A DNA stretch of 33,982 nucleotides from the IMG/VR virus record IMGVR_UViG_3300001848_000476, positions 1-33,982 of that record; one strand, written 5' to 3'. The DNA comes from a virus. Position numbers and translations under genes: made by a program. Under the pieces are notes generated by a model. It did no database searches. It had not been told where the DNA came from and saw only the letters and a program-made list of their open reading frames with translations. Shown in pieces: positions 1,765 to 20,075 of the stretch; the stretch's first letter is position 1, and every line of letters begins with the position of its first letter.

Positions 1765-3339
1765 TTATTGTGTTGATTTTGCATCATCAGTGCCAGCTAT
1801 CTTAGTAAATTTTTGAGCTCTTAAAGTTGCATCAGATTTTGGAGAACTAGCTACTATTGTTTGTGTTTGTCCAGTTTGATCTTTTTTCTGATAAATAGCT
1901 TCTTTTTTTAGTGCTTTTCTAAGATATTCTTTTAATTTACTGTACTTATCTTTTTTTCCTTCACTTAAATCTTGTATAGATTTTATTTTTCTATCTTTTG
2001 GAGCTTTTTCATTATATATTCTAACTGCTTCCTCTTCTCCAATTGATTTTGCTAAAGCTTTAAGTTTTTTATTTACTTCTAAAGCGGCTTGATGTTTTCT
2101 GTCATCATCAGACATTTCATGATACCAATCATATTTGTCTACTAATGATTTAAATTCATCTTTTTGAGCATCAGTATTATCTTCAGATATATGACTACTA
2201 AGCCAATTTTGCCCTGCAGTTCCTAAATCTGGTAATTTACTAAAAGCAGCATCTCTATTCTTTTTTTCTTGAGCATCAAGTATATTAATTTGATAATCTG
2301 CAATAGTACCATTACCTAATTCAACAGATATTGTTCCACCTAATACTCCAACAACCTTTCCAGGTCCTTCTGGTGTGTCTACAGTAGTTCCTATATTATA
2401 CTTATAATGTGTGTCTTCAGCTAAAGTTTTTTTTAGAGATTTTATTAATTGCTCTAATACCTTTTCTTTACCAGGCATATCCATTACTGAGGTAATTCCA
2501 GGTGTTTTTTTAGGAGTTACTCCCATTTCTTTAACACCTTCTGGTTTGCCTTTTTTATTTTCAGTCTTAGGAGCAGACATAGCTTTTAAAGTCTCTTGTC
2601 CTTTAACTTTTTCCATCTGATTTTTATCATCCACAGTATTTTTTTCTTTTACTGCAGTCATTTGCATATTTTTATCTTGTGCATCTACCTCTTTCGCATT
2701 AGCGAATTGATATTCCTTATATGCATTCGGATCTTTATATAATTTTCTTGCGGCTATTTCTAAAGCTTTTTCATAAGAATCATTAGTTATATTATCAGGA
2801 TCTTTTAACTCAGTAGCTATACCAATTTTAAGAGTATATGGATTTAATCTATCTACAATTTGAGATAGTGTTAAATCTTCAGCTTCATTTAATGTTTCAG
2901 TCATACCTGGAAATCCTGCTGGGTATTTATCATCATCGTCCATCTTTGACCAATCATCTTGATCTTCATCATCATATGCACCATTAGTTTCTCTGCGATA
3001 TATCTCATCATCATGAGCGGCTTGCTTTTCTGCTTCTGCATCCATCCAACCATCTTTCCATAAACTAGCTTCCGTAGATCCTGGTCTAAACGGGCAATCA
3101 TTAAGAGAACTTCCATTTTCATTTTCTATATATCCTCTTACATATGGATCTTTATAATCCATATTTTCTGAGATTGATTCAGCTATGATTCTCTTGCTTT
3201 TAAGAATTTTAACAGCATCATCTATAGATGTTACAGGAGATACGTATTGAGGAAATTGTTGGCGACAGTTTCTTACGAAATTATCTCTACTCATTTTTCC
3301 CTCTAATAGATCTTGGTATTGCTTTGTTATATTTTTCAT
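1765..3339 (-). CDS. Head-region protein of unknown function with N-terminal LLE site
   Basis: 524 residues, highly charged and rich in Lys, Asp and Glu, with no fold I recognise. It begins MKNITKQYQDLLEGKMS, so an LxE protease site lies at residues 11-13. A conserved-looking segment follows (RQQFPQYVSPVTSIDDAVKI, near 26-45). The middle (about 85-145) is acidic and the tail is basic. More LxE/IxE sites (ILAE-, ISE- and LSE-type) are scattered through it. It sits between a 44-residue basic gene and the prohead protease, where T4 has small core proteins gp67 and gp68. I infer a head core or packaged protein, but no homology to gp67/68 is visible. An ATATTTATTA motif ends two bases before the ATG. 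Confidence 0.7.
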   Translation of the reverse strand: MKNITKQYQDLLEGKMSRDNFVRNCRQQFPQYVSPVTSIDDAVKILKSKRIIAESISENMDYKDPYVRGYIENENGSSLNDCPFRPGSTEASLWKDGWMDAEAEKQAAHDDEIYRRETNGAYDDEDQDDWSKMDDDDKYPAGFPGMTETLNEAEDLTLSQIVDRLNPYTLKIGIATELKDPDNITNDSYEKALEIAARKLYKDPNAYKEYQFANAKEVDAQDKNMQMTAVKEKNTVDDKNQMEKVKGQETLKAMSAPKTENKKGKPEGVKEMGVTPKKTPGITSVMDMPGKEKVLEQLIKSLKKTLAEDTHYKYNIGTTVDTPEGPGKVVGVLGGTISVELGNGTIADYQINILDAQEKKNRDAAFSKLPDLGTAGQNWLSSHISEDNTDAQKDEFKSLVDKYDWYHEMSDDDRKHQAALEVNKKLKALAKSIGEEEAVRIYNEKAPKDRKIKSIQDLSEGKKDKYSKLKEYLRKALKKEAIYQKKDQTGQTQTIVASSPKSDATLRAQKFTKIAGTDDAKSTQ

Positions 3340-3341
3340 AC

Positions 3342-3351
3342 TAATAAATAT
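3342..3351 (-). promoter_or_regulatory. ATATTTATTA motif before the 524-residue head gene
   Basis: One copy of the recurrent sense-strand motif, ending two bases upstream of the ATG at 3339. A transcript started from it as a -10 box would begin inside the gene, so a translation or RNA-processing role is also possible. Confidence 0.35.
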
Positions 3352-3352
3352 A

Positions 3353-3487
3353 TTATACTCTGCCTTGTCCGCAGTAATTTTTTTCTTTATGATCGTGTTT
3401 GTTATGACTTTTTTTAGCCTTTCCTTTTTTTCTTTTACCGAAACTTATCTTTATTGCAGTTCCGCCTCTTGATATTGCTTTTGCCAT
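3353..3487 (-). CDS. Small basic protein, 44 residues
   Basis: ATG at 3487, TAA at 3353. The protein is Lys/Arg/Gly/His-rich: it starts MAKAISRGGTAIKISFGKRK, continues through KKGKAKK and a His-rich stretch (HNKHDHKEK), and ends CGQGRV. Nothing else explains the 161 bases between its neighbours, and its codons and A-rich start context fit the block. Its basic charge suggests binding of nucleic acid or of the acidic scaffold core, as an inference. Function unknown. It is in line with the flanking head genes and reads in the same direction. Confidence 0.6.
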   Translation of the reverse strand: MAKAISRGGTAIKISFGKRKKGKAKKSHNKHDHKEKNYCGQGRV

Positions 3488-3500
3488 TTGTTATTATTGT

Positions 3501-3887
3501 TTAATCTCCTCCACGATAAAAATCTGAAGTTGGATCAGTCCATCTACTTGTATTACCTGGGGTTGGTTTATCTAAATTTTGAATAGGTTCCTCTTCTGGT
3601 TCTTGTATATATGATAATTCTACTGGCTCTCCATCAATTGTTAGTTGGGCATCACCATAAGCAATATCATCAATTTTATATCTACCACCATCAGTTCTTA
3701 ATAATCCCATTGATGCAACCCATAAATTTACAGGTTCACCATTAACAGCGATTTCTTGACCAGCTTTTTTTGCTGCATTTATTTTAGAAACCAAATCTCT
3801 AATATCTATCGACTCATGAAGACTCACTTGAGAATACATTCCCAATTTATTTTCTACTAAGAATTTTTTTAAATCAAAATTGTCCAT
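3501..3887 (-). CDS. Candidate packaged head protein with two LxE sites
   Basis: 128 residues. The N-terminus MDNFDLKKFLVE has the form of a capsid-targeting peptide ending in LVE (E12). A second site, LHE, ends at E25, thirteen residues on. The same spacing is seen in the gp21-like protease and in the protein at 11724-12077. The rest is an unrecognised small domain with a Pro/Glu-rich C-terminal part ending in FYRGGD. The ATG overlaps the upstream stop (TAATG), so it is translationally coupled to the 569-residue gene. Internal capsid location is inferred from the leader peptide only. Confidence 0.7.
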   Translation of the reverse strand: MDNFDLKKFLVENKLGMYSQVSLHESIDIRDLVSKINAAKKAGQEIAVNGEPVNLWVASMGLLRTDGGRYKIDDIAYGDAQLTIDGEPVELSYIQEPEEEPIQNLDKPTPGNTSRWTDPTSDFYRGGD

Positions 3888-5596
3888 TATTTTAATTTTT
3901 TTGTTTTTATATGTAAAGCTTTTACAGCCTCTTTTATTTTTTGAATTGCATTTTCAGTATATTTTTTATACTTAAGTCCATCAGCATCTTCACTTAACTC
4001 TAATTTAAGTCTTTCCATATATTCATAAAGTTTATGAATCTCTTCTACTTTACGCTTTACTGATTTAACTGCTTGATGGAATTGTTCTGGTTTAGTTCTT
4101 GTCTTAGTTTCACTTTTAAAACGAGAATAATTCTCATTTACTGCAACTAGTCTTTCAACTTCTTTATAATCATGTGGATATAAATCATCTACTAAATCCA
4201 TAATAGCATTATACAATTTAGTATTTGTATATTTTATTTTGTCTATGATCTGTAAAACTTTTTGATAATCTTGAGGACTAAATACCTCATCTACAATTTT
4301 ATTTATTTCATTAAGACGTTCTATTCTATCATCTTTACTTTTTGACGCATCAAAATGTAATTTAGCATTTGTTTTTCTAGCCGGTGATATATTAGGTTTT
4401 GCTGATGTTCCCTTAGATTTACCTGTCAATAAAGCTTGTGATGCGTCAGCGTGATCAGCAGCAGTAAAATCTTTATGGGCTGGGTTATTGAAGTCAAGGT
4501 AAATATCTTTACCAGATTTTGTTTTTCCTATTGGTTTAGCTTCATCTAAATTTTCTCCCATCCAATCTTGATCTAAGTCACCTGTTAATTGTCTTATAGG
4601 TTCACTTTGACTATTAATAATATAATCTACTATTTCAGTAGCATTAGCTAAGCCTCCAAGACGGCTGAATTTTACAGGTCCTGTATATCCTAATTCTTTT
4701 TTAAGATATTCTGAAAAATCCATTCCAAAAGGCAATTTAGGAAGTTGCTTTCCTAATTTTCTTTCAACCCAAACTAATAATTTTAATCTCTTAATACGAT
4801 TTTCATAAGAACTCATTACTGAGTAGTTATTATTTGCATTAGCATCGGCTAATAGTGCCTCAACTCTAGCTAATTCGTCTTGGTTTGCAGACGATGTAAT
4901 AGTTGACTCTCTCAACTTAGCAAGTTGCCTATCAATTTTATCTAATTGATCTCCGTACATATCTGCTATAGGTCCGCCTTCTGGTTCGGCTTCTTGTTCC
5001 ATATCCCTCATAATCTCAGCTCTTTTCTTAAGAAGGCTATCGATATATGATTTTGATGCCGAGGATTGTATTGGGGTATTTGAAATTTTTGTAGGCAAAT
5101 CTTTTTTGGCTCTTAACTTCATTAGAATTGGATCATTAATGTCCATTTCCCATAATTCTTTATATTGAAATCCTCCTCTATCAGGAGTATGACCAGGTTT
5201 GAATCCTTTTAGTTCTTTGTACCCAGACAAAACATCTTCTTTGAATGGATTTTGTTTTTTAGAAGGGGCATTTAGTGATGCTAAATAACCTCCAGCATTA
5301 TTAGTAATATTCCCGCCTAAATCTTCTTGGAAATTAGTAACAGGTTTAATTGAATTTGGATCTAAACCCATACTTTGAATCATGTCTACGAATCTCTCTA
5401 ATTCATTTTGATCAGTAACATAATAAACATCTGGTCCATCATGTATGTAATCTACATCAGCTTCAAAATCATTTAAAAATAAATCATCAACTTTCTGATC
5501 ATCAATTGTAAACATTACTCTGCCTTCATTAATAGGCTCTCTTAATTTAAGAGTTGCTAATTGTTGATTAAATTCGTATTTTTTATTTTTAGCCAT
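3887..5596 (-). CDS. Head-region protein of unknown function, 569 residues
   Basis: Large, charged, mainly helical-looking protein with no domain I recognise. The N-terminus has an INE site at about residues 21-23 (LREPINEGRV), a possible (L/I)xE cleavage point. A Gly-rich segment (GGNITNNAGGY) lies near 115. The C-terminal 150 residues are Lys/Glu-rich and probably coiled coil. The start overlaps the upstream gene by 8 bases and the stop overlaps the next ATG, so it is embedded in a tightly coupled head-gene run between portal and protease. A prohead core or packaged structural role is inferred from position. Confidence 0.65.
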   Translation of the reverse strand: MAKNKKYEFNQQLATLKLREPINEGRVMFTIDDQKVDDLFLNDFEADVDYIHDGPDVYYVTDQNELERFVDMIQSMGLDPNSIKPVTNFQEDLGGNITNNAGGYLASLNAPSKKQNPFKEDVLSGYKELKGFKPGHTPDRGGFQYKELWEMDINDPILMKLRAKKDLPTKISNTPIQSSASKSYIDSLLKKRAEIMRDMEQEAEPEGGPIADMYGDQLDKIDRQLAKLRESTITSSANQDELARVEALLADANANNNYSVMSSYENRIKRLKLLVWVERKLGKQLPKLPFGMDFSEYLKKELGYTGPVKFSRLGGLANATEIVDYIINSQSEPIRQLTGDLDQDWMGENLDEAKPIGKTKSGKDIYLDFNNPAHKDFTAADHADASQALLTGKSKGTSAKPNISPARKTNAKLHFDASKSKDDRIERLNEINKIVDEVFSPQDYQKVLQIIDKIKYTNTKLYNAIMDLVDDLYPHDYKEVERLVAVNENYSRFKSETKTRTKPEQFHQAVKSVKRKVEEIHKLYEYMERLKLELSEDADGLKYKKYTENAIQKIKEAVKALHIKTKKLK

Positions 5597-6443
5597 TTGC
5601 TTTTTTTATTTCTTCAATTAAATCATAGCATTGTAAAATTCCAATAACTACCTCATCTCTAATAGATTTATTTTCGTCTAATGGAGAGATTAGTTTTGAT
5701 ACTTCTTGAAGTTTTATCTTGAGAACTTTATCTGGGGTTGTTTTCTGTAATGCGCTTAATTCGTCTTTAACATTATTAATTTTTTCATTTAAATAAAGAG
5801 TTAAAGATTTTGTATCTGTGATTGTACTTATATATTTACTAAGAATTTCTTTTTGTATTTCACTCAATACTTGATATTTGTCATTAAATTTATCTACTAA
5901 CATTTTGTAAGCTAATAATCTAATCTCTTTATCCTCTTTCATAAAGTCTTCCATTATAGATTGAGGAGCTTTTTTATCAGATATAGACTCTTTAGTTAAA
6001 TGCTCTAGTAAACTTATTTTATTCAGAATTAATGATTTAGTATCTACTGATTTAGAATTTTGAGATTCTAATATCATATAAACACAAGCATACGGTTTAT
6101 AGTTATCTATTTTAGCTTTAAAAAACTCATCTAAATCATAATTAGATTTTATCTCTTTAATTAAGTTATATTTCAACTTATTAAGTTTTTCAATATCTAA
6201 TTTTTTATATTGCTCAATTATCGTAGTCATCATTATTTCTGCTTTTGACTCAGATAATTTAGGGCTTGTTATAATAGTATTGTATAAACTATACTCCCTA
6301 CCTAATTCAGTATTGCTAAAATACTTCTTTAGAATTTTTACAGATTTAGAATCTTTATTATTTAACAGATCAGACGTTGTTTGTCTAACTAATAATTCAA
6401 ATAAGATCCCAGTATTTCTGTATTTGCTATGTTTAAGTGCCAT
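5589..6443 (-). CDS. Conserved-looking alpha-helical protein next to portal
   Basis: 284 residues. The start has a distinctive SKYRNTGILFELLVRQTTSD segment (about 6-25), followed by predicted helices rich in Lys, Leu, Ile and Glu. There are no signal peptide, membrane segment or catalytic motifs. I do not recognise the family. It lies directly downstream of the portal gene and overlaps the next gene by 8 bases, which argues for a role in head assembly. An ATATTTATTA motif ends 18 bases before the ATG. Its lack of LxE at the N-terminus sets it apart from the CTS-bearing genes. Confidence 0.65.
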   Translation of the reverse strand: MALKHSKYRNTGILFELLVRQTTSDLLNNKDSKSVKILKKYFSNTELGREYSLYNTIITSPKLSESKAEIMMTTIIEQYKKLDIEKLNKLKYNLIKEIKSNYDLDEFFKAKIDNYKPYACVYMILESQNSKSVDTKSLILNKISLLEHLTKESISDKKAPQSIMEDFMKEDKEIRLLAYKMLVDKFNDKYQVLSEIQKEILSKYISTITDTKSLTLYLNEKINNVKDELSALQKTTPDKVLKIKLQEVSKLISPLDENKSIRDEVVIGILQCYDLIEEIKKANG

Positions 6444-6479: not shown

Positions 6480-8390
6480 TTATTTTAAATCTGGTTTTAT
6501 GTTATCCTCATTTAATAGACTAGGTTCTTTATATAATTCTGTGCGTCTTCCTAATTTTGATAAAGCTTGTTGATTCTTTAAAAATTCAGTCATTGTGTTT
6601 TCATATGTTAATGGACCTCCTTTATATTGAACTTTTAATTTATCTTCAGATCCTTTTCCAGCAGATCCTAATTCTTTTTTACCAATACTATCTCTACCAA
6701 ATGCAGATGCATCTGTGCCTATTTTTGATTGATATTCTTTAGGTCTTCCAACATCTTCTTTTTCATCTTCATTATAACCAGTAGGTAAATCTAATGGACC
6801 ATCTCCTTTACCACCATATAGACTTGCTAATTGATGTGGTGTTCCAAATACTTGACCTGTTTCTGATGGATCATTTCCTTCCTCTTCAATTTGTTTTAAT
6901 CTAAAGGCTTTTTTCTTATCTTCGGCAATTAAATCTTCCATCTCAGAGTATTGATCTTCAGAGAATTGGAATATTTTATCATAAATAAAATCTTTGGGTA
7001 ATAAATTTCCTTCCATCGCATCTTTAGCCAAAGCAACTTTTTCTTTAAATAAAGCAATTCTCTCTTGCTCGTATATAATTGAAGGATTAGTTAATGATAA
7101 TGCAAAGTTTGCTGCTGATTCATTTGTGTAACCATGAGCATATAAATGTACTAGAGCTACTTTTGTTAATTCAGATATAATAATTCTTTGAATTCTCTCA
7201 ATAGTTCTTGCGAAACGAATATCTTCTGCGGCTAATGTAGCTTTACCAGTTAAATCTTTCTCATATCCCATGAAAGCTTTTGGTATTTTTAACGCCGCAA
7301 ATAATTTCTCTCTAAAATACTGAACGTCTTCAATTGCGTTATATTCTAATCCTTTTGCTGTATCAATACGAGTTGATTGATCATTGCCTCTTACAGGAAT
7401 AAAGAAATCTTCTAATAAATTCTGTTGGTTATATTTCAAATTATATTGACCAGTTTGTGGATCTATTAGTGGTGTTTTCTTCATTTTACCAATCATCCTC
7501 TGGATATAATTCTCAACTTCATTTGGAGGAATGGCTCCTACATTTACATAGAATGTTCTACGTTCTGGGGCTCTTGTAATACGGTGAATTAACATCGCAT
7601 CCTCAATAAGTGTATATTGTTTAAATAATTTTCTTCCTGGCTCTAAATAAGATCTTCCATAAGGCAAATAGTTAACGTCTCCAGTTAATCTAAGATGCGC
7701 CATTTCATAATTATCAAAATAAACACCTGGATCTTCATTATTATATGCAGATGAGAATCCTGAAGTAGTTCCTAATGCTCCTAATGGATCATATTTGAAT
7801 CTCACTTCATTAGGATTTTCTGGATTATATCCTTCTTGCCTAATAATATTATAGGCTGAGAAAGGAATTACATTATAAACACCATATTTTTCTGCAATCT
7901 CTAATTTTAAATAGAAATCACCGTATTTACACATGTTTCTAATCCATCCCCATAAAGTAAATTCAATATTTAGTACTGAATAGAATAGATTATATAATAG
8001 TTTTTGGATATTTTCATCTGAAGATCTGATTTGCAATACCTCTCCTTGTTCATTTTTTAAAGTACACTCATCAGCAATAATATCTAAAGCAGAAGATACA
8101 ATTGCATCAGTATCCATAGCATCATAATCTGCATAAATTTGAATACGAGCTGATTGGTAGTTTTGCGCTAAGTTTAGATTTACTCCATAAGCTGTTGATG
8201 TAGTATATATTTTATGGAACCTATCTACTAATGAATTATTTTGAACTACACCATTGTTTTGGATACGATCTATATCCATTACTTTAAGCATGCCATCACC
8301 GTCATTTCTTATAATAACATCAGTGGAAAACAATCTTCTTAATGTAGAGAATAAATTGTTTCTAGGTTGTTGTTTTTGCTCTTCTGCCAT
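6480..8390 (-). CDS. 20: Portal vertex protein, gp20-like
   Basis: 636 residues, somewhat longer than T4 gp20. The portal dodecamer sits at the head vertex, nucleates prohead assembly and conducts DNA. Recognisable parts include a DAMDTDAIVSSALDIIADE segment near 90, WGWIRNMCKYGDFYLKLE near 147, an RAPERRTFYVNVG segment near 277, and PKAFMGYEKDLTGKA near 375, all typical of T4-like portals. The last 130 residues are Gly/Lys/Glu-rich and look disordered. It follows the terminase with a 13-base gap, the T4 order. Confidence 0.92.
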   Translation of the reverse strand: MAEEQKQQPRNNLFSTLRRLFSTDVIIRNDGDGMLKVMDIDRIQNNGVVQNNSLVDRFHKIYTTSTAYGVNLNLAQNYQSARIQIYADYDAMDTDAIVSSALDIIADECTLKNEQGEVLQIRSSDENIQKLLYNLFYSVLNIEFTLWGWIRNMCKYGDFYLKLEIAEKYGVYNVIPFSAYNIIRQEGYNPENPNEVRFKYDPLGALGTTSGFSSAYNNEDPGVYFDNYEMAHLRLTGDVNYLPYGRSYLEPGRKLFKQYTLIEDAMLIHRITRAPERRTFYVNVGAIPPNEVENYIQRMIGKMKKTPLIDPQTGQYNLKYNQQNLLEDFFIPVRGNDQSTRIDTAKGLEYNAIEDVQYFREKLFAALKIPKAFMGYEKDLTGKATLAAEDIRFARTIERIQRIIISELTKVALVHLYAHGYTNESAANFALSLTNPSIIYEQERIALFKEKVALAKDAMEGNLLPKDFIYDKIFQFSEDQYSEMEDLIAEDKKKAFRLKQIEEEGNDPSETGQVFGTPHQLASLYGGKGDGPLDLPTGYNEDEKEDVGRPKEYQSKIGTDASAFGRDSIGKKELGSAGKGSEDKLKVQYKGGPLTYENTMTEFLKNQQALSKLGRRTELYKEPSLLNEDNIKPDLK

Positions 8391-10083: not shown

Positions 10084-10941
10084 TTATGTAAATGGTGTAT
10101 CAGCTGTCCATCCAGCACTATGATTTACCAAGTTATTTGTTTTTGTTGCATCATATACAGGGTTAGTAACACCACCACCTAACATTAATAATTTAGTAGT
10201 TGCTGTTTTAGTTAATGGAGAAGTTGGTACTGTTAATGAACTACCCGTATATAGTGCCGAGTTATCCCAACGGAAATTAGTTAATTTACCAGCCCACCAG
10301 TTTGGTGCAAATGCTGCTGGATTATCAACACCAACATTTAAGTCAAAGCCAGGATTGATTGAATCTGTAATATCTCTAGTATCTCCAGTCTTAGTAGCTT
10401 TCAATACTCCGTTCATAAATAATTTTGTAGTTGTTCCGCTTCTAGAAATTGCAACATGCATCCAAGCACTTCCATTATTGTAAGAGGCCGGTGTTGTTCC
10501 TCTTAAATCGCTTCCATAAGGCCATACATAAACATAACCGCCTTCAATTGAAATTCCAATAGTTGCACCAGTATCAAATCCTAATGAGAATACTCTAGGA
10601 GCTCCAACCGATTGTGTTCCGTTTTTAATAAAAAACTCAATGGTAAAATCTCCAGTGCCAGGTAACCAATTTATCACATCAGAATTTAATGCAGTAAAAT
10701 ATTGTGATGTTCCATTAAATGTTAATGCACCACTACCACCACCAGGAAATTCCTCTACAGTATCTGCTACTGAGCCACCAGCTGAGGCAATAGCCTGCAT
10801 TGATTGCATCATTAACATTTGCTGTGTATATTGATTAGCCTCTGCTAAATACTTACGTCTCATAGCATCAGTGGATAATCCTATATTATCTACTCTATTT
10901 ATATAATATTGCCAAGGGCCTGGGTCATTTACTAAAAACAT
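10084..10941 (-). CDS. LamG/concanavalin-like virion protein
   Basis: 285 residues. Residues 1-70 are a helical N-terminal region (NDPGPWQYYINRVDNIGL, then an Ala/Met/Gln-rich helix). A Gly-rich linker leads to a jelly-roll domain of about 190 residues. LTFNGTSQYF, GDFTIEFFIKN, WMHVAISRSGTTTKLFMNG and WWAGKLTNFRWD are characteristic of the LamG/concanavalin A-like lectin fold. The family binds glycans or acts as an exposed adhesive domain. I infer that the N-terminus anchors it in the virion and the jelly roll is displayed. It lies between small membrane-protein genes and the terminase. Whether it is a capsid decoration or a tail protein cannot be told from sequence. Confidence 0.72.
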   Translation of the reverse strand: MFLVNDPGPWQYYINRVDNIGLSTDAMRRKYLAEANQYTQQMLMMQSMQAIASAGGSVADTVEEFPGGGSGALTFNGTSQYFTALNSDVINWLPGTGDFTIEFFIKNGTQSVGAPRVFSLGFDTGATIGISIEGGYVYVWPYGSDLRGTTPASYNNGSAWMHVAISRSGTTTKLFMNGVLKATKTGDTRDITDSINPGFDLNVGVDNPAAFAPNWWAGKLTNFRWDNSALYTGSSLTVPTSPLTKTATTKLLMLGGGVTNPVYDATKTNNLVNHSAGWTADTPFT

Positions 10942-10952
10942 TCTTTATTTTT

Positions 10953-11387
10953 TTATTTTGTGATATATAAATAAGTTAGTCCTCCTATAATAGCGCTCAA
11001 ACTTATCTTAGTAAATATTAATTTTACTTTAAGTTTTTTATTTTGTTTACGTAATTCATCAACCCACTTGCCTTGAGTTTCAAATTTAAGTTGCTCATTT
11101 TTAATGCGCTCTTCATATAAAATTCCTTTTTGGATATGTTGAGAAATTATACTATCTTTTAAAGCTACCTTTTGCTCAGTCAAAAATAATTGCTCTTTTG
11201 TTAACTCATGTATCTCTTTTAAACTATCACAAGATACTAATTCTTTAGCCACTGTTTTAGCTACTGAATAAGGTAATTTAATTGTGTCACTATAATAAAC
11301 ATTGCCTAAACTATCATAAGTTGCAATTGTTTGTGATTTTGATACTATTGGTAGGATTGATATTATTATGATTAATAAGTATTTCAT
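10953..11387 (-). CDS. Membrane or secreted protein with coiled coil and C-terminal membrane helix
   Basis: 144 residues. A signal-peptide-like start (MKYLLIIIISILPIVSKSQ) is followed by a polar region, a long Lys/Glu-rich coiled coil (about 50-120) and a hydrophobic C-terminal helix (LSAIIGGLTYLYI). This topology resembles unimolecular spanins, but no lipobox Cys follows the signal segment, so that call is not supported. The ATG overlaps the stop of the next upstream gene (TAATG), which also encodes a membrane-anchored coiled coil. The pair may be lysis or envelope proteins. Function unknown. Confidence 0.6.
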   Translation of the reverse strand: MKYLLIIIISILPIVSKSQTIATYDSLGNVYYSDTIKLPYSVAKTVAKELVSCDSLKEIHELTKEQLFLTEQKVALKDSIISQHIQKGILYEERIKNEQLKFETQGKWVDELRKQNKKLKVKLIFTKISLSAIIGGLTYLYITK

Positions 11388-11740
11388 TAGTAGTTATATC
11401 TTGATTTAAAAAATGAGTCAATTTGAGCTGCATTATAATGAGTGACCTTATCATTTATTTCATGATAATACTCTTTTATTACTACAGTTTTTTCTTTTAT
11501 ATTATCTATTTGATGATCCACTTGTTTAACTTCTGTTTCATAAACAGATATTGTGCTATCAATTTGTTTTTGGTGTTCTATTAATTGTTTATTAACATTT
11601 GTTAGTGAATCAATTGTAGCTTTAAGATCTGCAGGCATTTGGGATTTTCTAGTTGTAATCCAGATAATACCATATAATAAAAATAAACCTAGTATAACAT
11701 ATAATATAGGCTTATAATTTTTTTTAATCTTCACTATCAT
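11387..11740 (-). CDS. Membrane-anchored coiled-coil protein, possibly spanin-like
   Basis: One N-terminal membrane segment (ILYVILGLFLLYGIIWI) is followed by a coiled coil rich in Gln, Asp, Lys and Val, and a Tyr/Phe-rich end (FFKSRYNY). The layout matches inner-membrane spanins (Rz type), and the adjacent gene also encodes a membrane coiled coil. I chose ATG 11740 (MIVKIKKNY); ATG 11764 would lengthen the overlap with the upstream gene. Spanins are too diverse for sequence proof here, so this is an inference from topology and pairing. Confidence 0.55.
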   Translation of the reverse strand: MIVKIKKNYKPILYVILGLFLLYGIIWITTRKSQMPADLKATIDSLTNVNKQLIEHQKQIDSTISVYETEVKQVDHQIDNIKEKTVVIKEYYHEINDKVTHYNAAQIDSFFKSRYNY

Positions 11741-12077
11741 CGACTTTTGGATTTTCGACTGCATCTATTTTCTTTTTTAATTGTTTAATTTTATTTGGAA
11801 TATCACCTATTGCTTTTTTGTAACCTTCTACGTCAGTTAGTTCTTTTCCTTTAGGTGTATCTTTTGTAAATTTCATTATTACATCTTTCACTTTAGCTTG
11901 TAATTGAGCTAATTCTTTTTTGTTTTTTTGAAGATCACGCATCTCTTTATCAGTCTGCTTCATATCAGCTTTTGTAGGTTCTGGTGTTTCATCAGGATCT
12001 ACATCTTCTGATAGTCTTCTTTTACCAGTTAAAGTTAAACTGTTTTCTATTAAATATTTTTGTAAATTAAATGACAT
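11724..12077 (-). CDS. Candidate packaged coiled-coil protein with LIE and KRRLSE sites
   Basis: 117 residues. The N-terminal MSFNLQKYLIE is a capsid-targeting-like peptide (E11). A second site, KRRLSE, ends at E24. The gp21-like protease has the same LIE...KRRLSE pair with identical spacing (E8 and E21), which suggests a shared leader module. The rest is Lys/Glu/Gln-rich and probably one long coiled coil, with an acidic Pro-rich spacer (about 25-38). Function unknown; a capsid-internal protein is inferred. Confidence 0.65.
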   Translation of the reverse strand: MSFNLQKYLIENSLTLTGKRRLSEDVDPDETPEPTKADMKQTDKEMRDLQKNKKELAQLQAKVKDVIMKFTKDTPKGKELTDVEGYKKAIGDIPNKIKQLKKKIDAVENPKVDDSED

Positions 12078-12088
12078 ACAATATTATT

Positions 12089-14398
12089 TTATCTATTTAT
12101 AAAAACTTTTGATAAACTTTCTCCATTAATTATAGAATCTCCTTCTGCCACAAAAGCAAAATCTGATCCACTATTACACTTAAATGCTACTTGTGTATAA
12201 TTAAGATCCTTTAATGTTGTAGCGCCAGTTTCAGAAGGATTTATTGACGATAATGTATACATAGTCATTGCATAATAATACGGTTTAATACCTGAAGCAG
12301 ATGATTTTCCTTGAGATGGCTCTATCCTAAGACCTATTATTGGAACTTGAGATTTTGTTTCTGTTGATTTTATCATTGACCCTAAATCTTTTTTTGTTTT
12401 TTCTATGTACTCTTCTTTTTTACCATAATTTTTTAAACTAGTACCTGTATATTTAACTAATGGTAAATTTCCAGATTTTCCATAAGTTGCTTCTGCAGAA
12501 ATAGTTACTGATAATTGTAATAAAGAATCCCTCATTTTTTGAGCATCTTTTATTTTCACATTTTTTAGTACATCTTTAAACATTCTGTCTAAAAGAGTTA
12601 GTGATAATGCATTTGAATAATTAAATAATAAGTTTTTAATTTCATCTCTTGTAAAAGATATTGGAGATCCTTTTGAATCTACAATTACACTACATCTGCC
12701 TTTTTTTGGCGGAGTATTTGAAGACTCTTTACCTTTTAAAATTTTATCTTCTACTATTTTTAATTGTTTTTTTGCTTCACTACTAAAAATGTTTCTTCCA
12801 TTATCAAATCTAGTTTTTAAATATGAACCCTTACTATATTTTTCCATAAAAGAGAAAAAATCATCTAATGCAGTCCCACTAATTGCTGAGTCCAAATATG
12901 GTTTTATTGATTTTACAACATCACGATGACAAGTAGTACATATAATATTTGAAGAGTCTGCTTCTTGTAAGTCTCCTTGATTAAATTCATTTTCTAATTT
13001 AGAAAACTCTTCATTAGCTTTTTCCCAATCTTTTACATTTTGGTTATTTTTAGAAAATATTGTTTTAATGCTATTAACTAAATCATCAAAAAAAGATTTT
13101 GCTTTATTATATAATGATATTACAGTTTTTCCTACTGAGGAATTTTTTAATTTTTCTATAAAATCATTAATTAAACTTTCTGTGATTTCGGATTTTTCGT
13201 GAATATAGCTTTCAGTTGCTACACCATATGCTCCACCAAAATACTTTGTTAATTTTCCGATTCTTCCTGTGTTGGCTTTTAAACTAACGCAAGCCATAGA
13301 TATTCCATTTCCCAAATCTACAACTGATGTTGTTCCTTTTTTTATTTTTGGATTATTTACTGATTTTTTAATAGCATCCACTATTTTTGAATCAGATAAT
13401 GGATCATTGGGAACAGGTCCCCAAAATACTACTACGTCTGCTGTAAATACTTTATTTGCTGATTTATTTTTATCAGCTGCTTCAATAATTTTATAAAAAT
13501 CTTTTATTTTTCCATGTATAAATGAACTAATAGTTTTATTATTATTTAATGATCTTAAATTATTTTTTGAATTAGCTATAGGAGATGAATCCTCTTTCCC
13601 CATTAAATAACTATTATTTATAAAATCAACGCTTTTTTTATCTTTATTAACTATTTTTTGTAATTCTTTTATTCTTTCTACTGCTACTGGATTCCAATCA
13701 TAAGATGGATTTCCTAATACTGTTGATATTAAATTTTGTGCAGTTACTTTTTTATCTATTAGTGCTTCAACTATTGGTGGAGTTTCTAAAAATGGAGTTA
13801 TGTTAGTAGCGTCTATAGTTTCATACCAATTATGAAAAGCTGTTGAATCAGATTTTTTTATAACTTCAGCTAATATATTTAAATCTATTAATTTTGATTC
13901 TGCTAATTTTTCTTCTTCACCTCCTGATGTTTCTTCTCCTCCCGTTTCTGAACTTTCAGCTGGTGGTGTTTCAGGAGTCTCTCCACCTTCTGTACCAGAT
14001 TGCTCTGCACCTTCAGCTCCTTTAGTTTTAAGAGGGCTTCCCCATCTTAATAACTTTTTAATAGCTAGCATGCATCTCTGCTTCTCACCAGTAGTTAATA
14101 AAAAATATCTTTTGCCTGCAACTGTGGCTTCGTAAGCCTCTCCCATGAATGTTAAAAAGAAATATTGACCATTATGCAAAACTATTTTAAATTCTGTAGG
14201 TTTATCTGCTATAATATAAATTCCAGTTAAATATTCTTCAAAATTTTCAGACATTAATTCAATTAAAATCTCTTTTAAACTTACATATTTGTTTAAAATA
14301 AAATGCATTGGATCATCCTCAAATGTTTTTGGGGCTGGTTCCATTCGATCGGCCTCTTCCTCTGTCAATAAAAATTTTAATATTTCTAAATTATTCAT
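12089..14398 (-). CDS. Large candidate packaged protein, 769 residues
   Basis: The N-terminus MNNLEILKFLLTE fits the capsid-targeting pattern (LTE, E13). A small mixed domain follows (about 30-120), then a Gly/Glu/Pro/Thr-rich linker (about 125-165), then 600 residues of unrecognised sequence. In that part are FTADVVVFWG and, further on, GISMACVSLKANTG, an arrangement loosely like the Asp...(S/E)xK core of PD-(D/E)XK nucleases. I do not rely on that. A CTTCH motif is also present. T4 packages one large protein, the Alt ADP-ribosyltransferase, but I see no clear ADP-ribosyltransferase motifs here. It is the largest gene between primase and terminase. Confidence 0.65.
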   Translation of the reverse strand: MNNLEILKFLLTEEEADRMEPAPKTFEDDPMHFILNKYVSLKEILIELMSENFEEYLTGIYIIADKPTEFKIVLHNGQYFFLTFMGEAYEATVAGKRYFLLTTGEKQRCMLAIKKLLRWGSPLKTKGAEGAEQSGTEGGETPETPPAESSETGGEETSGGEEEKLAESKLIDLNILAEVIKKSDSTAFHNWYETIDATNITPFLETPPIVEALIDKKVTAQNLISTVLGNPSYDWNPVAVERIKELQKIVNKDKKSVDFINNSYLMGKEDSSPIANSKNNLRSLNNNKTISSFIHGKIKDFYKIIEAADKNKSANKVFTADVVVFWGPVPNDPLSDSKIVDAIKKSVNNPKIKKGTTSVVDLGNGISMACVSLKANTGRIGKLTKYFGGAYGVATESYIHEKSEITESLINDFIEKLKNSSVGKTVISLYNKAKSFFDDLVNSIKTIFSKNNQNVKDWEKANEEFSKLENEFNQGDLQEADSSNIICTTCHRDVVKSIKPYLDSAISGTALDDFFSFMEKYSKGSYLKTRFDNGRNIFSSEAKKQLKIVEDKILKGKESSNTPPKKGRCSVIVDSKGSPISFTRDEIKNLLFNYSNALSLTLLDRMFKDVLKNVKIKDAQKMRDSLLQLSVTISAEATYGKSGNLPLVKYTGTSLKNYGKKEEYIEKTKKDLGSMIKSTETKSQVPIIGLRIEPSQGKSSASGIKPYYYAMTMYTLSSINPSETGATTLKDLNYTQVAFKCNSGSDFAFVAEGDSIINGESLSKVFINR

Positions 14399-14415
14399 AA
14401 TTTTATATTCTAATA

Positions 14416-15111
14416 TTAACGATCAAAATCCTCCTCGCTATCACTATAATCATCATAATCTTCTTGATCATAATCATAACTATCTTCATCATCTGGCGCT
14501 TCTAAATCCATTTCAGCTGTTTTTTCTGCCATATATTCTTTAACAGAATGCATATAATCGGATGCTAAAGTTATATATGAACTAATCCAAGCAGGTAATT
14601 CAGTTCCTACTTCAATCATTTCGTAAATATCTTGAGAATTTTCAATCATATCTCTTAATTCCGCTTTTGCCATTGAAGCCTCATGATCGCTAGATGGTTT
14701 TCCTAATACATCAATGCCTTCTTGCATATATCCGCACTCTGTACACAATTTATTTTCCATTTTAGCACCACATTGACATGTTTCTTCTGCTTCTTTTATG
14801 CGAATACACTTATCTTTTCCATTTTCTGTGCCAGCATATCTATATCCTTTCCAACAACCTTTACCATCACCACCTTTTATTTTTTCAGTTTCATTTTGTG
14901 ATAATTTAGGTTTTGTTACACTATACTTTTTCATTCCAATATTATACTGATCCTCAGGGATTGACTCATCTATATTTTTTTCTATATTTTGACCAACTTT
15001 TTTCTCCCAAGAAGAGATTTTATTGTCTTTATCTCTATCAGCCAGCTTTGGATTTTTTAATCCTGATTTATCATAAGAAACTTCGTTGAGTAAATGTTTT
15101 AATTTTATCAT
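14416..15111 (-). CDS. Candidate packaged protein with EF-hand-like loop and zinc ribbon
   Basis: 231 residues. MIKLKHLLNE is the clearest capsid-targeting-like leader (E10). Residues 25-36 (DRDKDNKISSWE) match an EF-hand/dockerin calcium loop, with acids at positions 1, 3 and 5, Ile at 8 and Glu at 12. Position 6 is Asn rather than Gly. A Cys-containing segment (GCWKGYRYAGTENGKDKC) follows, then CQC...CTEC (C112, C114, C123, C126), a probable zinc-binding knuckle. A helical region (about 143-200) with an ELPAWISSYITLASDYMHSV-like pattern comes next. The tail is strongly acidic (Asp/Tyr/Ser). I recall similar helical segments in marine T4-like phages. Exact role unknown. Confidence 0.68.
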   Translation of the reverse strand: MIKLKHLLNEVSYDKSGLKNPKLADRDKDNKISSWEKKVGQNIEKNIDESIPEDQYNIGMKKYSVTKPKLSQNETEKIKGGDGKGCWKGYRYAGTENGKDKCIRIKEAEETCQCGAKMENKLCTECGYMQEGIDVLGKPSSDHEASMAKAELRDMIENSQDIYEMIEVGTELPAWISSYITLASDYMHSVKEYMAEKTAEMDLEAPDDEDSYDYDQEDYDDYSDSEEDFDR

Positions 15112-15115
15112 TTTT

Positions 15116-15412
15116 TTATTTTAAAAATTCTGGATATTTTTCTAATACTCTATCTTGCATTGCTTTTTTAGCAGCTTTTAGAGCTTTAATACTTTGATTT
15201 ATAACTGGATCAGATAAATGTTCATCATCTTCTGCATCTTGTATATTATGGATAATATCATCAAGTTTTTTAAATATAACATTAAAATCTGGTTTGTATT
15301 TAACATCCCAAGTTATTTTACCAGTCTCTGGATTAACATCTGTTTGGGTTGTTGTAGCCGCAGTATAATCTCCTATCTCTAAAAGATCAATTAATTTATA
15401 CATTTTTTTCAT
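15116..15412 (-). CDS. Small candidate packaged protein, LLE leader
   Basis: About 98 residues from ATG 15412, which directly follows the upstream stop (TAAATATG). Starts at 15421 or 15403 are possible. The leader MKKMYKLIDLLE fits the (L/I)xE pattern. The remainder has a small Thr-rich part and a helical C-terminal half (about 45-98) rich in Asp, Lys and Ala. No family recognised. It sits between the Cys/Trp-rich protein and the EF-hand-like protein. Confidence 0.6.
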   Translation of the reverse strand: MKKMYKLIDLLEIGDYTAATTTQTDVNPETGKITWDVKYKPDFNVIFKKLDDIIHNIQDAEDDEHLSDPVINQSIKALKAAKKAMQDRVLEKYPEFLK

Positions 15413-15414
15413 AT

Positions 15415-15741
15415 TTACCATTTTCTACAAGACCAATAACGTGCTTTCCATCTTGGTCCTGGATTTGTATCACAATGATGTCTTGCTCTGAAGCTTTTTC
15501 TCCTTTTAGGATTGCTTTTTTTAATTTTAACACCTTTTTGGCCGAAATTAACTTTAACCACATTCCCTTTATTGTTTTTAACATACACTTTGAATTTTTT
15601 TACATCACCAGCCATAGGTTTTCCTAACTGCACTGTTCTACCTTTATATTCTGCCTCTTCTAATTTATTATAGTGCTCTAAAATATACTCTTTTAAGCAC
15701 ATCGGACAGAATTCACCCTCATTTAATTCATGTTTATGCAT
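15415..15741 (-). CDS. Small basic Cys/Trp-rich protein
   Basis: 108 residues. Short leader MHKHELNE (LNE, E8), then CPMC, a beta-like middle (GKPMAGDVKKFKVYVKN), and a basic C-terminus KSNPKRRKSFRARHHC ending PGPRWKARYWSCRKW. The two CxxC/HxxC-type clusters could bind zinc. KRRKSFxAR recalls small basic proteins seen in other marine T4-like phages, from memory and unverified. Function unknown. Basic charge suggests DNA contact in the capsid, as an inference. Confidence 0.62.
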   Translation of the reverse strand: MHKHELNEGEFCPMCLKEYILEHYNKLEEAEYKGRTVQLGKPMAGDVKKFKVYVKNNKGNVVKVNFGQKGVKIKKSNPKRRKSFRARHHCDTNPGPRWKARYWSCRKW

Positions 15742-15744
15742 ATA

Positions 15745-16116
15745 TTAATGTAAAAACTTAAGTTTATATTTAGTAGATTCTATTAAAGCAACTACATTGT
15801 CTATTTCATTTTGAATATAGCTATCTTGAGGTAGTGTTTTTCTTACACTTTCTACATATTGACATAGTGCTTCAAAATATATTAATGGCTGATTATCTTC
15901 TTTAAACTGTGCTGGGCTTGTATATCCATAGATAATTCCATATCTACCTTGAAAACTTTCTACAAGTCCATCAGCTAATTCTACAATTTCATCATAGTAC
16001 TCATTTAGAGCTTTATGAGCAGCATATGATCCTTCTCCAGTTGTCTGTAAATGGAATATATGAGCTTGAGTACGACTAGAAAATAATGTTGATATAAATT
16101 TTGCGTATTGTTCCAT
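15745..16116 (-). CDS. Dps/ferritin-like four-helix protein
   Basis: 123 residues, all helical by appearance. The stretch AHIFHLQTTGEGSYAAHKAL followed by NEYYDEIVELADGL (about 18-51) resembles the Dps/ferritin-like core, with His at 19, 22 and 34 and acidic residues at 42-49 where ferroxidase ligands occur in Dps. In that family, proteins bind iron and protect DNA. The protein is shorter than typical Dps (about 150-170). The ATG and upstream stop overlap (TAATG). No CTS-like leader. It could be an inactive structural relative; iron binding is unproven. Confidence 0.55.
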   Translation of the reverse strand: MEQYAKFISTLFSSRTQAHIFHLQTTGEGSYAAHKALNEYYDEIVELADGLVESFQGRYGIIYGYTSPAQFKEDNQPLIYFEALCQYVESVRKTLPQDSYIQNEIDNVVALIESTKYKLKFLH

Positions 16117-16751
16117 TATTTTTTATCTTTTTTGTCTTTATCAGATTCTTTTTCTATTTCTTTTTTTGATTTTTCTATTTTTTCTAACTTAGTCATTAAA
16201 TCATCTATCTTAGATGTTATTAATGCTATTTGTTCTCTATGTTTAGAAGCATTTTTTGGATCTTCTTTAGCCATATCCATATACTCTTTTCTCTTTTTCT
16301 CTAGAGTATCTAGTACAGTTTTAACTTTTTTACTAGTTTCTTCTTTTTTCTCTTCTAAAGCGGCTTGTTTTTTAGAATACTCTTGAAATAGATTATCAGC
16401 TACTGACTGAGCCATTGGTTGGTCAGCATAAACTGAGTGAATTTGATCAGGTTGTATTTGTTGAAGACCTACTAATGGATCAACTGGTTTAACAAGATCA
16501 GTTACTTGGCATCCTGAATAAGGATTTTGTACTGCATATACATTTGATAAAGACATGTCAGCAGCTTCTTTTATAGTTTTTTTAGTTTTCATCTTGTTTT
16601 CTGCATGTATTTGTAATGCCGCTATATAATCATCTAGACTTCCTTTTGTACATCCTACTTTTTCTCCTCTTACTGTTATCTTCTTACCGTCTTTTACTTT
16701 TTTAATTTTCTTATATACGCACTTATTTTTATAGTCTATAGAATACGGCAT
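16116..16751 (-). CDS. Charged coiled-coil protein of unknown function
   Basis: 211 residues. A basic N-terminal part (KKIKKVKDGKKITVRG) is followed by VGCTKGSLDDYIAALQIH, a segment that looks conserved. A Pro/Gln-rich middle (about 73-115) leads to a long Lys/Glu coiled coil ending in KKDKK. No enzyme motifs are visible. An ATATTTATTA motif ends 10 bases before the ATG. The end overlaps the next gene (TAATG). Function unknown. Confidence 0.6.
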   Translation of the reverse strand: MPYSIDYKNKCVYKKIKKVKDGKKITVRGEKVGCTKGSLDDYIAALQIHAENKMKTKKTIKEAADMSLSNVYAVQNPYSGCQVTDLVKPVDPLVGLQQIQPDQIHSVYADQPMAQSVADNLFQEYSKKQAALEEKKEETSKKVKTVLDTLEKKRKEYMDMAKEDPKNASKHREQIALITSKIDDLMTKLEKIEKSKKEIEKESDKDKKDKK

Positions 16752-16761
16752 AATTTGTTTT

Positions 16762-16771
16762 TAATAAATAT
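16762..16771 (-). promoter_or_regulatory. ATATTTATTA motif in a 21-base gap
   Basis: Sense-oriented copy of the recurrent motif filling most of the 21-base gap between two genes, 10 bases before the ATG at 16751. Confidence 0.38.
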
Positions 16772-16772
16772 T

Positions 16773-17342
16773 TTAAATTTGAATCTTTTTTAAATTTTCT
16801 ATATTTGATTTTAATTCGTTATATATTTTAGTCTTATCTACTTTACTCCAGCTCTCGATATCTCCATTTTCAGTTATAAAAGAATCATTTTGATTCATCC
16901 AAGACTCAACTGCATTTTCAAAATCTTCTAAAGAAGCATTTTTACTTGCATTTCTTTGTTTAGAAACGTACTCATCCCACTTTCCATCTATTCTAATTTT
17001 TGTTTCCATGTCAATAACACAATCAAAACACATGTTATGTAGAGTATACATTTTTTTATTCAAATCATGTATTTTCATAGGTTTATTACAACAAGGACAT
17101 GTTAAAGGCAATACAGCTAATCTTTTTATACCATCTAATTTAGTAATTGTCTGCTTAATACCATTCTTTATAGTCCACTGTTTTCCATTTTCTTCCCAAA
17201 TGTCTCCTTCTGAATAATCTGTGTTTTTCTTTTCCCAACCTGATTGAATTTGAGTTCTATCACCAGCATTACCTGTAATAATATTCCTCATTCTTTGTAC
17301 TGTACTTTTCGAAAACTCTTTTTTTAAATTTGATTGGCTCAT
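16773..17342 (-). CDS. Zinc-ribbon-like protein of unknown function
   Basis: 189 residues. The N-terminal part has RMRNIITGNAGDRTQIQSGW, then GDIWEENGKQWTIKNGIKQ, then LPLTCPCCNKPMKIHDLN and MCFDCVIDMETK (two CxxC knuckles, about 30 residues apart), which would form a zinc ribbon. The C-terminal part is helical. I recall similar proteins in T4-like phages of marine bacteria but no function. No CTS-like leader. It starts in an intergenic gap preceded by an ATAAATTAAAATAATT run. Confidence 0.62.
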   Translation of the reverse strand: MSQSNLKKEFSKSTVQRMRNIITGNAGDRTQIQSGWEKKNTDYSEGDIWEENGKQWTIKNGIKQTITKLDGIKRLAVLPLTCPCCNKPMKIHDLNKKMYTLHNMCFDCVIDMETKIRIDGKWDEYVSKQRNASKNASLEDFENAVESWMNQNDSFITENGDIESWSKVDKTKIYNELKSNIENLKKIQI

Positions 17343-17361
17343 AACAATTATTTTAATTTAT

Positions 17362-17778
17362 TTATATTATTTGTACTACTTTTAAGGCTTCAGGATTAAT
17401 AAATTTAGGGAAAAATAATTTATATATTCTCCTACGTTTTTCATTCGTGCCATCAATAATAATCTTATCTACTTCTTCTTCATATTGATAGTAAAAATCA
17501 TTAATTATTTCAGCTATTGTTTCTAAAATATTTCTAGCATCTCCTTCTCCTGTCATTTGAAATGTATCTATTTTATTCAATTCTCCAGTATCTACTCCAA
17601 ATGATAGTTCAAATTCTTTTTCTTTTTGTTTAGAATCAAAAATGACTTTGTATTTATTTTGTTTTGTATTAAAAGTATATTCAACTACTAATAAACTATT
17701 ATCCTCATCATCATATAGAACATCATGTTCTGAAAATGGATAAGCTGATTCTTTTAGTATGTTTAATAACTTAATCAT
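17362..17778 (-). CDS. Small candidate packaged protein, MIKLLNILKE leader
   Basis: 138 residues. The leader MIKLLNILKE (E10) is nearly the same as those at 14416-15111 and 19254-20054 and fits a capsid-targeting peptide. The rest is a mixed alpha/beta domain with an acidic stretch and an Arg/Lys cluster (NEKRRRIYKLFFPKF). No family recognised. The ATG overlaps the stop of the zincin-HAD gene (ATGA), so the two are coupled. Confidence 0.65.
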   Translation of the reverse strand: MIKLLNILKESAYPFSEHDVLYDDEDNSLLVVEYTFNTKQNKYKVIFDSKQKEKEFELSFGVDTGELNKIDTFQMTGEGDARNILETIAEIINDFYYQYEEEVDKIIIDGTNEKRRRIYKLFFPKFINPEALKVVQII

Positions 17779-18668: not shown

Positions 18669-18670
18669 TT

Positions 18671-20054: not shown

Positions 20055-20057
20055 ATC

Positions 20058-20067
20058 TTATAAATAT
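20058..20067 (-). promoter_or_regulatory. ATATTTATAA motif before kinase gene
   Basis: Sense-oriented copy of the recurrent motif in the 21-base gap between nuclease and kinase genes. It lies at the boundary between replication genes and the CTS-bearing enzyme cassette, which would suit a separate late transcription start. Confidence 0.38.
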
Positions 20068-20075
20068 TAGTATTA

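Follow-up and report, generated by a model that had tools for sequence, protein, structure and literature searches.

A putative enlarged and modular prohead-core slot between the portal and protease genes of a T4-like phage

In phage T4 the slot between the portal gene gp20 and the prohead protease gene gp21 is filled by gp67 (80 residues) and gp68 (141 residues). The gp21 protease cleaves after L/I-x-E according to the excerpted account in PMC9026906, which also describes many head proteins of the giant phages phiKZ, 201phi2-1 and SPN3US as cut by a gp21-like protease, with a large inner protein mass, and reports S/A-x-E as the head cleavage motif of phiKZ. Extracts of PMC12373910 and PMC3012670 describe the T4 internal proteins as having only a leader in common. 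Here we compare these systems with IMG/VR virus record IMGVR_UViG_3300001848_000476, whose entire 33,982 nt we call the window. Between its portal and protease genes lie five minus-strand frames of 284, 569, 128, 44 and 524 codons (p284, p569, p128, p44 and p524) in about 4.7 kb, in the gp67/gp68 slot and at exactly the coordinates given by a preliminary description of this DNA. We propose that the block is probably an enlarged, modular and protease-processed form of the T4-type prohead-core slot, possibly with cargo.

Gene order, slot size and protease-type motifs

With small gaps or overlaps, the minus-strand order in the window runs portal, p284, p569, p128, p44, p524, protease and gp22-like scaffold gene. 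The five interval proteins matched no PHROGs family below 0.01 (best 0.021, for p524), and weak Pfam matches (RST, Mmc1_N, RasGEF, SiaC and others) fell below cut-off and were set aside. Apart from a near-cut-off RMF-family module in p524, no described phage family in Pfam or PHROGs was matched, in line with the preliminary description, which called three large genes unknown.

A protein search with p284 against 50,697 phage records returned six matches at 37-41% identity, comprising four records of Flavobacterium phage immuto, the uncultured huge phage LR756508 and Microcystis phage Mel-JY01. When viral contigs were scanned, 86 stretches were confirmed and the best 80 of them kept; with L002-L004 and the window they make 84 loci, all chosen by p284 (fetched with it, or the window itself). 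The comparison of gene content across relatives that the preliminary description had called for revealed the frames to be conserved as genes, with the closest relatives keeping the order p284, p569, sometimes p128, p44, p524 and protease. Its term 'flavobacterial' for the group is backed solely by the nearest cultured relative, a Flavobacterium phage at 40% p284 identity; the Microcystis phage stands at 37%.

Slot size varies widely. In the 54 loci (of 84, window included) that show a protease frame, the distance from p284 to protease extends from 755 nt (L063) to 5456 nt (L004), with 3802 nt in the window. Compact relatives possess two small slot genes, of 158 and 172 codons in L054, L057, L068 and L069 and of 79 and 174 codons in L063, similar in size to gp67 and gp68. 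The huge phage has about 1540 codons between p284 and protease, where the small frames are uncertain; reading TAG as Q opened no long frames in this 5.4 kb interval of LR756508, and an altered code was dismissed. Occupying the same slot and likewise bearing L/I-x-E sites, the window block differs from T4 gp67/gp68 in length (1265 codons from p284 to protease versus 221, about six times), in its modular build, and in having an extra conserved p284 gene and a basic 44-mer, p44, with homologues in 20 loci (15 distinct sequences).

Motif counts were compared with those expected from shuffles of the same composition. The seven window frames from the gp22-like gene to p284 contain 19 [LI]xE[AGS] motifs versus 5.4 expected (0 of 1000 shuffles), while terminase plus portal contain 1 versus 2.4 and 14 plus-strand genes 2 versus 6.8. 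We extended the count to 21 representative loci with the protease in view, out of 28 clusters at 90% p284 identity, giving 51 slot proteins of at least 60 residues; slot frames were picked by length, and some small ones, in L004 above all, may be spurious. These proteins carry 83 motifs versus 30.3 expected, a 2.7-fold excess (0 of 200 shuffles), or 78 versus 27.2 in the 39 proteins that remain without the huge-phage locus L004 (0 of 100). Across the 21 loci the gp22-like protein (78 versus 27.5) and the protease (51 versus 11.5; 0 of 200 shuffles each) are also enriched, whereas the portal (25 versus 30.1; 178 of 200) is not; terminase gave 22 versus 17.5 (36 of 200). Resolved by first residue, the slot proteins contain 51 LxE versus 15.7 and 32 IxE versus 14.5 (0 of 100 each), VxE giving 17 versus 12.7 (9 of 100), and five control motifs (FxE, AxE, KxE, LxD and LxK) were not raised in them; omitting L004 left this whole picture essentially as it was. 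A short putative cut motif ending in E and a gp21-like protease are features in common with the giant phages, as a large inner protein mass would be, from which the window group differs in that L/I-x-E, and not AxE, is enriched.

The immuto genome was divided into gene blocks covering 233 plus-strand genes, with 6 minus-strand genes left out, one gene counted in two blocks, and S, T, A or G allowed after E. The genes from p284 to the major capsid protein (MCP) hold 18 motifs versus 7.3 expected (0 of 300 shuffles). Two other blocks are raised, one before the terminase (29 versus 18.8, P 0.013) and one of glycosyltransferase and small genes (30 versus 22.9, P 0.05); the remaining four are not enriched.

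Modules in p569 and p524

A profile of the last 110 residues of p569, built from 20 homologues, matches ten 158-codon genes among frames outside the profile (1.8e-14 to 1.4e-13) and a 178-residue Mel-JY01 protein (1.1e-8). Because its C-terminal profile matches the 158-codon genes, p569 is, on this alignment evidence, the same gene in a form three to four times as long. The compact form most likely came first, with p569 and p524 growing later from forms of about 160-175 residues through insertion of small folded modules between fixed ends. BLAST comparison of p569 with its homologues revealed non-collinear blocks: in L017 the block matching residues 349-446 precedes one matching 237-301, and the part around 54-121 is matched twice in L007, L008, L016 and L017. 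In L076 the gene before the protease combines a p524-type N-terminus with a p569 block (147-228). Near its N-terminus p569 has LRE/P at 20 and INE/G at 24 (here and below, the slash stands behind the E of the motif).

The predicted model of p524 begins with a three-helix domain (residues 1-50, predicted local distance difference test (pLDDT) score 76-86), after which confidence drops for a stretch. Residues 89-118 and 158-225 are modelled as helices, 319-350 as a barrel and 388-460 as a helical module (pLDDT 83-92 from 391), and pLDDT falls below 50 at 55-77, 120-155, 244-292, 304-311, 368-371, 380-386 and 480-524. Nine [LI]xE sites are present. Those at 54, 58, 152, 308 and 386 lie in or beside low-pLDDT stretches (386 is drawn as helix) and that at 460 at a module end, so that sites 54, 152, 308, 386 and 460 fall between folded modules of the model; all 8 close relatives retain 54, 152 and 308. 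The first sites are LLE/G at 13 and the conserved IIAE/S at 54, which closes the N-terminal domain. Of 47 distinct pre-protease genes, 31 have an [ILV]xE pattern at this leader end, and in 30 of these P3 is I or L.

The N-terminal domain of p524 was considered as a general capsid-targeting tag and rejected. Its profile (A1) has one place in 14 of the 15 positive records among 17 searched, because of which we regard the domain as gene-specific, a difference from the capsid targeting sequence of T4. Mel-JY01 and the record G006 gave no A1 match, a second match in G003 is weak (17 residues, 0.034), and a match in LR756508 at 414690, far from the slot, is of doubtful meaning (E 3.4e-4).

Other modules differ between relatives. 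The DWYxxMSDD module of p524 is present in 5 of 8 close relatives including the window, missing from the other 3, and found in 3 of 17 records searched. The barrel (309-364) aligns with Tudor/SH3 barrels (best Z 6.7, 3.2 Å over 55 residues). Foldseek gave no match below 0.001 for whole p524, PDB sequence-profile searches nothing below 0.05, and a single-sequence PDB search with p524 only the RMF structure 2jrm (0.034). The final ~35 residues encoded ahead of the protease gene, in p524 (C-terminus, window 1768-1959) and in relatives, fall by eye into several dissimilar types, seemingly exchanged between loci.

RMF binds 16S rRNA of the ribosome. Residues 66-103 of p524 match Pfam RMF (PF04957, Rmf/CrpP fold); against a cut-off of 27.9 bits, the score is 25.6 from the whole-protein scan and 29.4 from the genome search. 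Scores of 30.8 and 30.4 were obtained for the L007 and L010 orthologues and of 15.8 to 25.4 for those in L005, L006, L009, L014 and L075; matches occur in 8 of 22 records, exactly the clade of 8 that includes the window, and 4 exceed the cut-off. Among 14 control genomes Escherichia coli was the sole match, and the module lies below the cut-offs of the NCBIfam RMF models. Although it resembles the RMF family in matching at or near the cut-off in all 8 records, the p524 module differs in being acidic and embedded in a large core-type protein. Net charge is -18 for the fragment 55-152 and -4 for residues 67-108, against +1 for the aligned stretch of 2jrm. Because the module is negatively charged, the binding mode of RMF is argued against, and we did not adopt an ordinary ribosome-binding factor as explanation. 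We describe p524 of this clade as carrying a putative, acidic RMF-family module. A ribosomal theme by way of phage bS21 was likewise dismissed: bS21 occurs in only 2 of 23 records (Mel-JY01 and LR756508), in neither the window nor its close relatives. In Mel-JY01 it lies at L003:8848-9075, between the protease and scaffold genes on the same strand. Late transcription of bS21 phages is reported in a portion of PMC9723584 and offers only an analogy for the window.

Leaders, capsid-like peptides and candidate packaged proteins

The preliminary description noted at least two LxE leaders, and such leaders are present in p524, p569 and p128; p284 has only LFE/L at 16, inside a predicted helix, and p44 has none. 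In p128 the sites are FLVE/N at 12 and LHE/S at 25. Profile A6 combines two leaders of the window, one of immuto and three of p128 homologues, six in all, and its own members match by construction: the window's two leaders, both rows of the profile, gave E 7.5e-18 and 2.2e-14. Each also matches immuto leaders on its own. A6 has places in 7 of 16 records, with 2 in the window, 4 in immuto, 3 in G001, 2 in G002 (one at 0.014), 2 in G006, 1 in G003 and 6 in G012, where four are short and partial and two very weak.

Four immuto proteins of 99 to 333 residues carry the p128-type leader. When their first 40 residues and those of the two window proteins are compared, 14 of 15 pairs match at 0.005 or better, the two window leaders failing to match each other at 0.01. 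Among the bodies, taken from residue 27 onward, a single pair matches weakly (0.002, 44 residues, 27%), and no other falls below 0.1. Leader DNA is 90-96% identical over 24-40 nt in three of the four immuto genes. The p128 leader on otherwise unrelated bodies is, at the level of sequence, the pattern of T4 internal proteins: like IPI-III and Alt with their capsid targeting sequence, p128 and its relatives have a short N-terminal L/I-x-E leader, which differs in its sequence, and packaging and injection of p128 would be further expectations from this likeness.

A second region of the window is rich in the same motif. The minus-strand block 10084-21799 (17 genes) has 21 [LI]xE[AGS] versus 7.9 expected (0 of 1000 shuffles), [LIM]xE within residues 4-22 in 9 of 17 genes (3.6 expected) and several MIKLxxLLxE-type starts. 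Its genes are candidates for a wider packaged protein set. The packaged set suggested by the preliminary description thus gains plausibility from this block and from the leader on unrelated proteins, packaging itself staying presumptive. Within the block, 19254-20054 encodes a Zeta-toxin/P-loop kinase-like protein (Pfam 2.3e-9) with the leader-like start MIKLSKLLLEV, 18671-19261 a nucleotidyltransferase-like protein (phrog_395, 6.4e-7) whose leader-like start ends in ILYE, and 15745-16116 a protein that matches the unknown-function family DUF5856 well (1.7e-20).

Some relatives, unlike the window, encode in the gene after p284 a peptide that resembles the mature MCP N-terminus. A pattern written after the peptide had been seen, run on every plus-strand frame of 35 or more codons across the 84 loci, matches only MCPs and the gene after p284 (L019, L021, L022, L033, L034, L058, L074 and L076); the peptide of the L036 group was identified by eye. 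LxE or a similar site directly precedes it in L019, L022, L058, L074, L076 and the L036 group, and no such site is present in the viewed stretch of L033/L034. Peptide and MCP DNA are nearly identical in L074, agreeing at 13 of 14 third positions of identical residues. In L019 (4 of 10) and L037 (6 of 12) the DNA has diverged though the peptide is alike, which suggests selection on the peptide. The capsid-like peptide supports a putative head role for the slot. Slot genes of L002, L003, L004, L049 and L063 (immuto, Mel-JY01, LR756508 and others) have a related peptide with the core TG..GYxTxxAF after an E-ending start, of which window p569 retains a weak relic at most, near residues 91-112.

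Coordinates of the slot genes, their modules and the flanking head genes are collected in Table 1. The gp22-like gene has homologues in 44 loci and its protein no Pfam or PHROG match. p524 overlaps the first ATG of the protease frame by 23 nt, and homologues suggest a later protease start without overlap.

Table 1. Features of the portal-to-scaffold region in the window
Feature	Coordinates	Strand	Basis and remarks
Portal protein, gp20 type	6480-8390	minus	Pfam Portal_T4 1.1e-71; T4-type also by PHROGs
p284	5589-6443	minus	284 aa; conserved, all-helical; putative head-core or portal-associated protein
p569	3887-5596	minus	569 aa; enlarged core-type; INE/G at 24, shuffled middle blocks, fixed C-terminal helical domain
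p569 C-terminal helical domain (residues 485-569)	3890-4144	minus	Common to compact 137-209-codon genes of relatives
p128	3501-3887	minus	128 aa; small, transferable N-terminal leader
p128 leader, NFDLKKFLVENKL type	3810-3887	minus	Profile A6; related leader in window at 12003-12077
p44	3353-3487	minus	Small, very basic conserved peptide, end GQGR(V)
p524	1765-3339	minus	524 aa; modular core-type, directly upstream of protease gene
p524 N-terminal 54-residue three-helix domain, end IIAE/S	3178-3339	minus	Alignment, profile, predicted model
p524 RMF-family (PF04957) module, between sites 54 and 152	3031-3144	minus	Pfam RMF match
p524 SH3/Tudor-like barrel module (residues 309-386), LAE/D at 308 before	2182-2415	minus	Predicted model, structure alignment
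p524 optional helical module with DWYxxMSDD motif	1981-2160	minus	Alignment of close relatives, predicted model
Prohead protease, gp21 type	1134-1787	minus	Peptidase_S77 3.9e-22; phrog_207 4e-49
gp22-like main scaffold protein, acidic	2-991	minus	Position as in T4 and immuto; gene extends past window end

Core assembly, cargo and other readings

A T4-type scheme accommodates these observations. p569 and p524, and probably p284, p128 and p44, would be built into the inner prohead core with the gp22-like scaffold, and the gp21-type protease would then cut core proteins after L/I-x-E. With likely cut sites at most module borders of p524, maturation would yield short fragments, most of which may exit the head or stay as filler, and some modules may be cargo for the next host. 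Incorporation would be signalled by the 54-residue N-terminal domain of p524 and by the short p128 leader, both of them removable. Position and the presence of several L/I-x-E motifs link the slot proteins to gp67/gp68, whereas sequence homology does not; because of their place, the size of the compact forms and the motif enrichment, the proposal that they work like gp67/gp68 is supported, and we do not file them in those families. The enlarged prohead core envisaged by the preliminary description is favored by the slot itself, the long and short gene forms and L/I-x-E enrichment in 21 divergent loci, with presence in heads the predicted part.

Several observations weigh against this scheme. 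No gp67/gp68 sequence relation is detectable: hhalign probabilities were below 1% for each of the alignments of p524 N-terminal domain, p284 and p569, in a comparison of low sensitivity with a single sequence on the T4 side. Slot genes of immuto, LR756508, L058, L063 and L074 gave no match to the p569 C-terminal domain, nor did the 80-codon gene of L076. Terminase IxE[AGS] taken alone gave 20 versus 7.6, probably one conserved site (IDE/A at 163 in the window) counted once per homologue, and the counts of the core families are inflated too, because homologues are not independent and conserved sites are recounted. The MCPs of the group keep a stretch at the N-terminus whose conserved site, at residue 58-66, reads VxE in 25 of 29 distinct sequences and IxE in the other 4; with the presumed site mostly VxE, the MCP propeptide is weakened as proof of the L/I motif, and it supports an E-ending site rather than strict L/I at P3. 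Overall confidence in the p524 model is low (pLDDT 61.6, predicted template modelling score (pTM) 0.25), and on account of this pTM the module borders rest on alignment too. Sites 13, 435 and 471 of p524 lie in or at helices, conserved site 308 always has D behind it and falls outside the counted [LI]xE[AGS] motif, sites 386 and 460 are poorly conserved (mostly absent) among the 8 close relatives, and the leader end pattern is missing from 16 of the 47 distinct pre-protease genes. Late expression is unsupported, since the T4 late-promoter octamer TATAAATA occurs 14 times in the window versus 13.8 expected, an uninformative count, and a literature search for this phage group found no virion or prohead data.

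The role of p284 may be separate. Complete copies (276-302 residues) represent one well-folded helical protein, and the AlphaFold model has a mean pLDDT of 84 and 14 helices. In BFVD it resembles two uncharacterised phage proteins (E 2.5e-14 and 8.9e-4); against the PDB, Foldseek gave no convincing match (best E 2.5) and VIA-align a best Z of 7.3, middling by the tool's range, at 2.1 Å over 72 residues of the C-terminal helices. Structure prediction, advised in the preliminary description, delivered a confident fold for p284 and a modular if weak model for p524. This single helical fold, with no leader-like N-terminal site outside a helix, and a position within 208 nt after the portal gene in 84 of 84 loci would suit a chaperone or connector in portal assembly rather than a core protein. 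We consider such a role possible but on the unlikely side, as p284 has a raised [LI]xE[AGS] count in the 21 loci (39 versus 15 expected, 0 of 200 shuffles) like the core proteins, though homologues may repeat sites.

Alternatively, the large proteins might mainly be injected effectors or counter-defence proteins in the core slot, like T4 IPI-III and Alt, their size reflecting cargo and not scaffolding. Modules that vary between close relatives, the p128 leader on otherwise unrelated bodies (the leader-only kinship described above for T4 internal proteins) and an RMF-family module between two conserved sites are all consistent with this. Retention of the p569 and p524 end domains in many relatives and the near-gp67/gp68 size of the compact forms fit a structural role instead, and database scans revealed no module with recognised effector activity, the RMF-family module being acidic; we judge a mainly cargo function unlikely. 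A combined model, in which the core proteins are an expandable, cleavable polyprotein platform whose maturation frees modules, and in which the RMF-like one (p524 55-152) is packaged, delivered and acts on host translation or another early target, is speculative and we hold it quite improbable. An accessory-gene hot spot between portal and protease, encoding no head proteins and with LxE runs arising by composition, would account for the wide size range (755 to 5456 nt) and the lack of convincing database relatives other than the RMF module, but is very improbable given an enrichment over same-composition shuffles that is confined to L/I-x-E, absent from control motifs and from the portals of the same loci, and given the order p284-p569-p44-p524-protease kept in the closest relatives and the three p524 module-border sites kept in 8 of 8.

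Core scaffolding, head size and protein loading have been worked out mainly in T4 and a few giant phages. In this aquatic T4-like group, the coding length between p284 and protease ranges from about 250 to more than 1200 codons among otherwise related head modules, and block insertion, permutation and duplication are visible, with likely cut sites between modules. If these proteins are in the core, the group would provide a natural series in which head size and cargo could be related to core mass and cut sites, and candidate packaged proteins of this phage group might be listed from sequence alone by means of their leaders.

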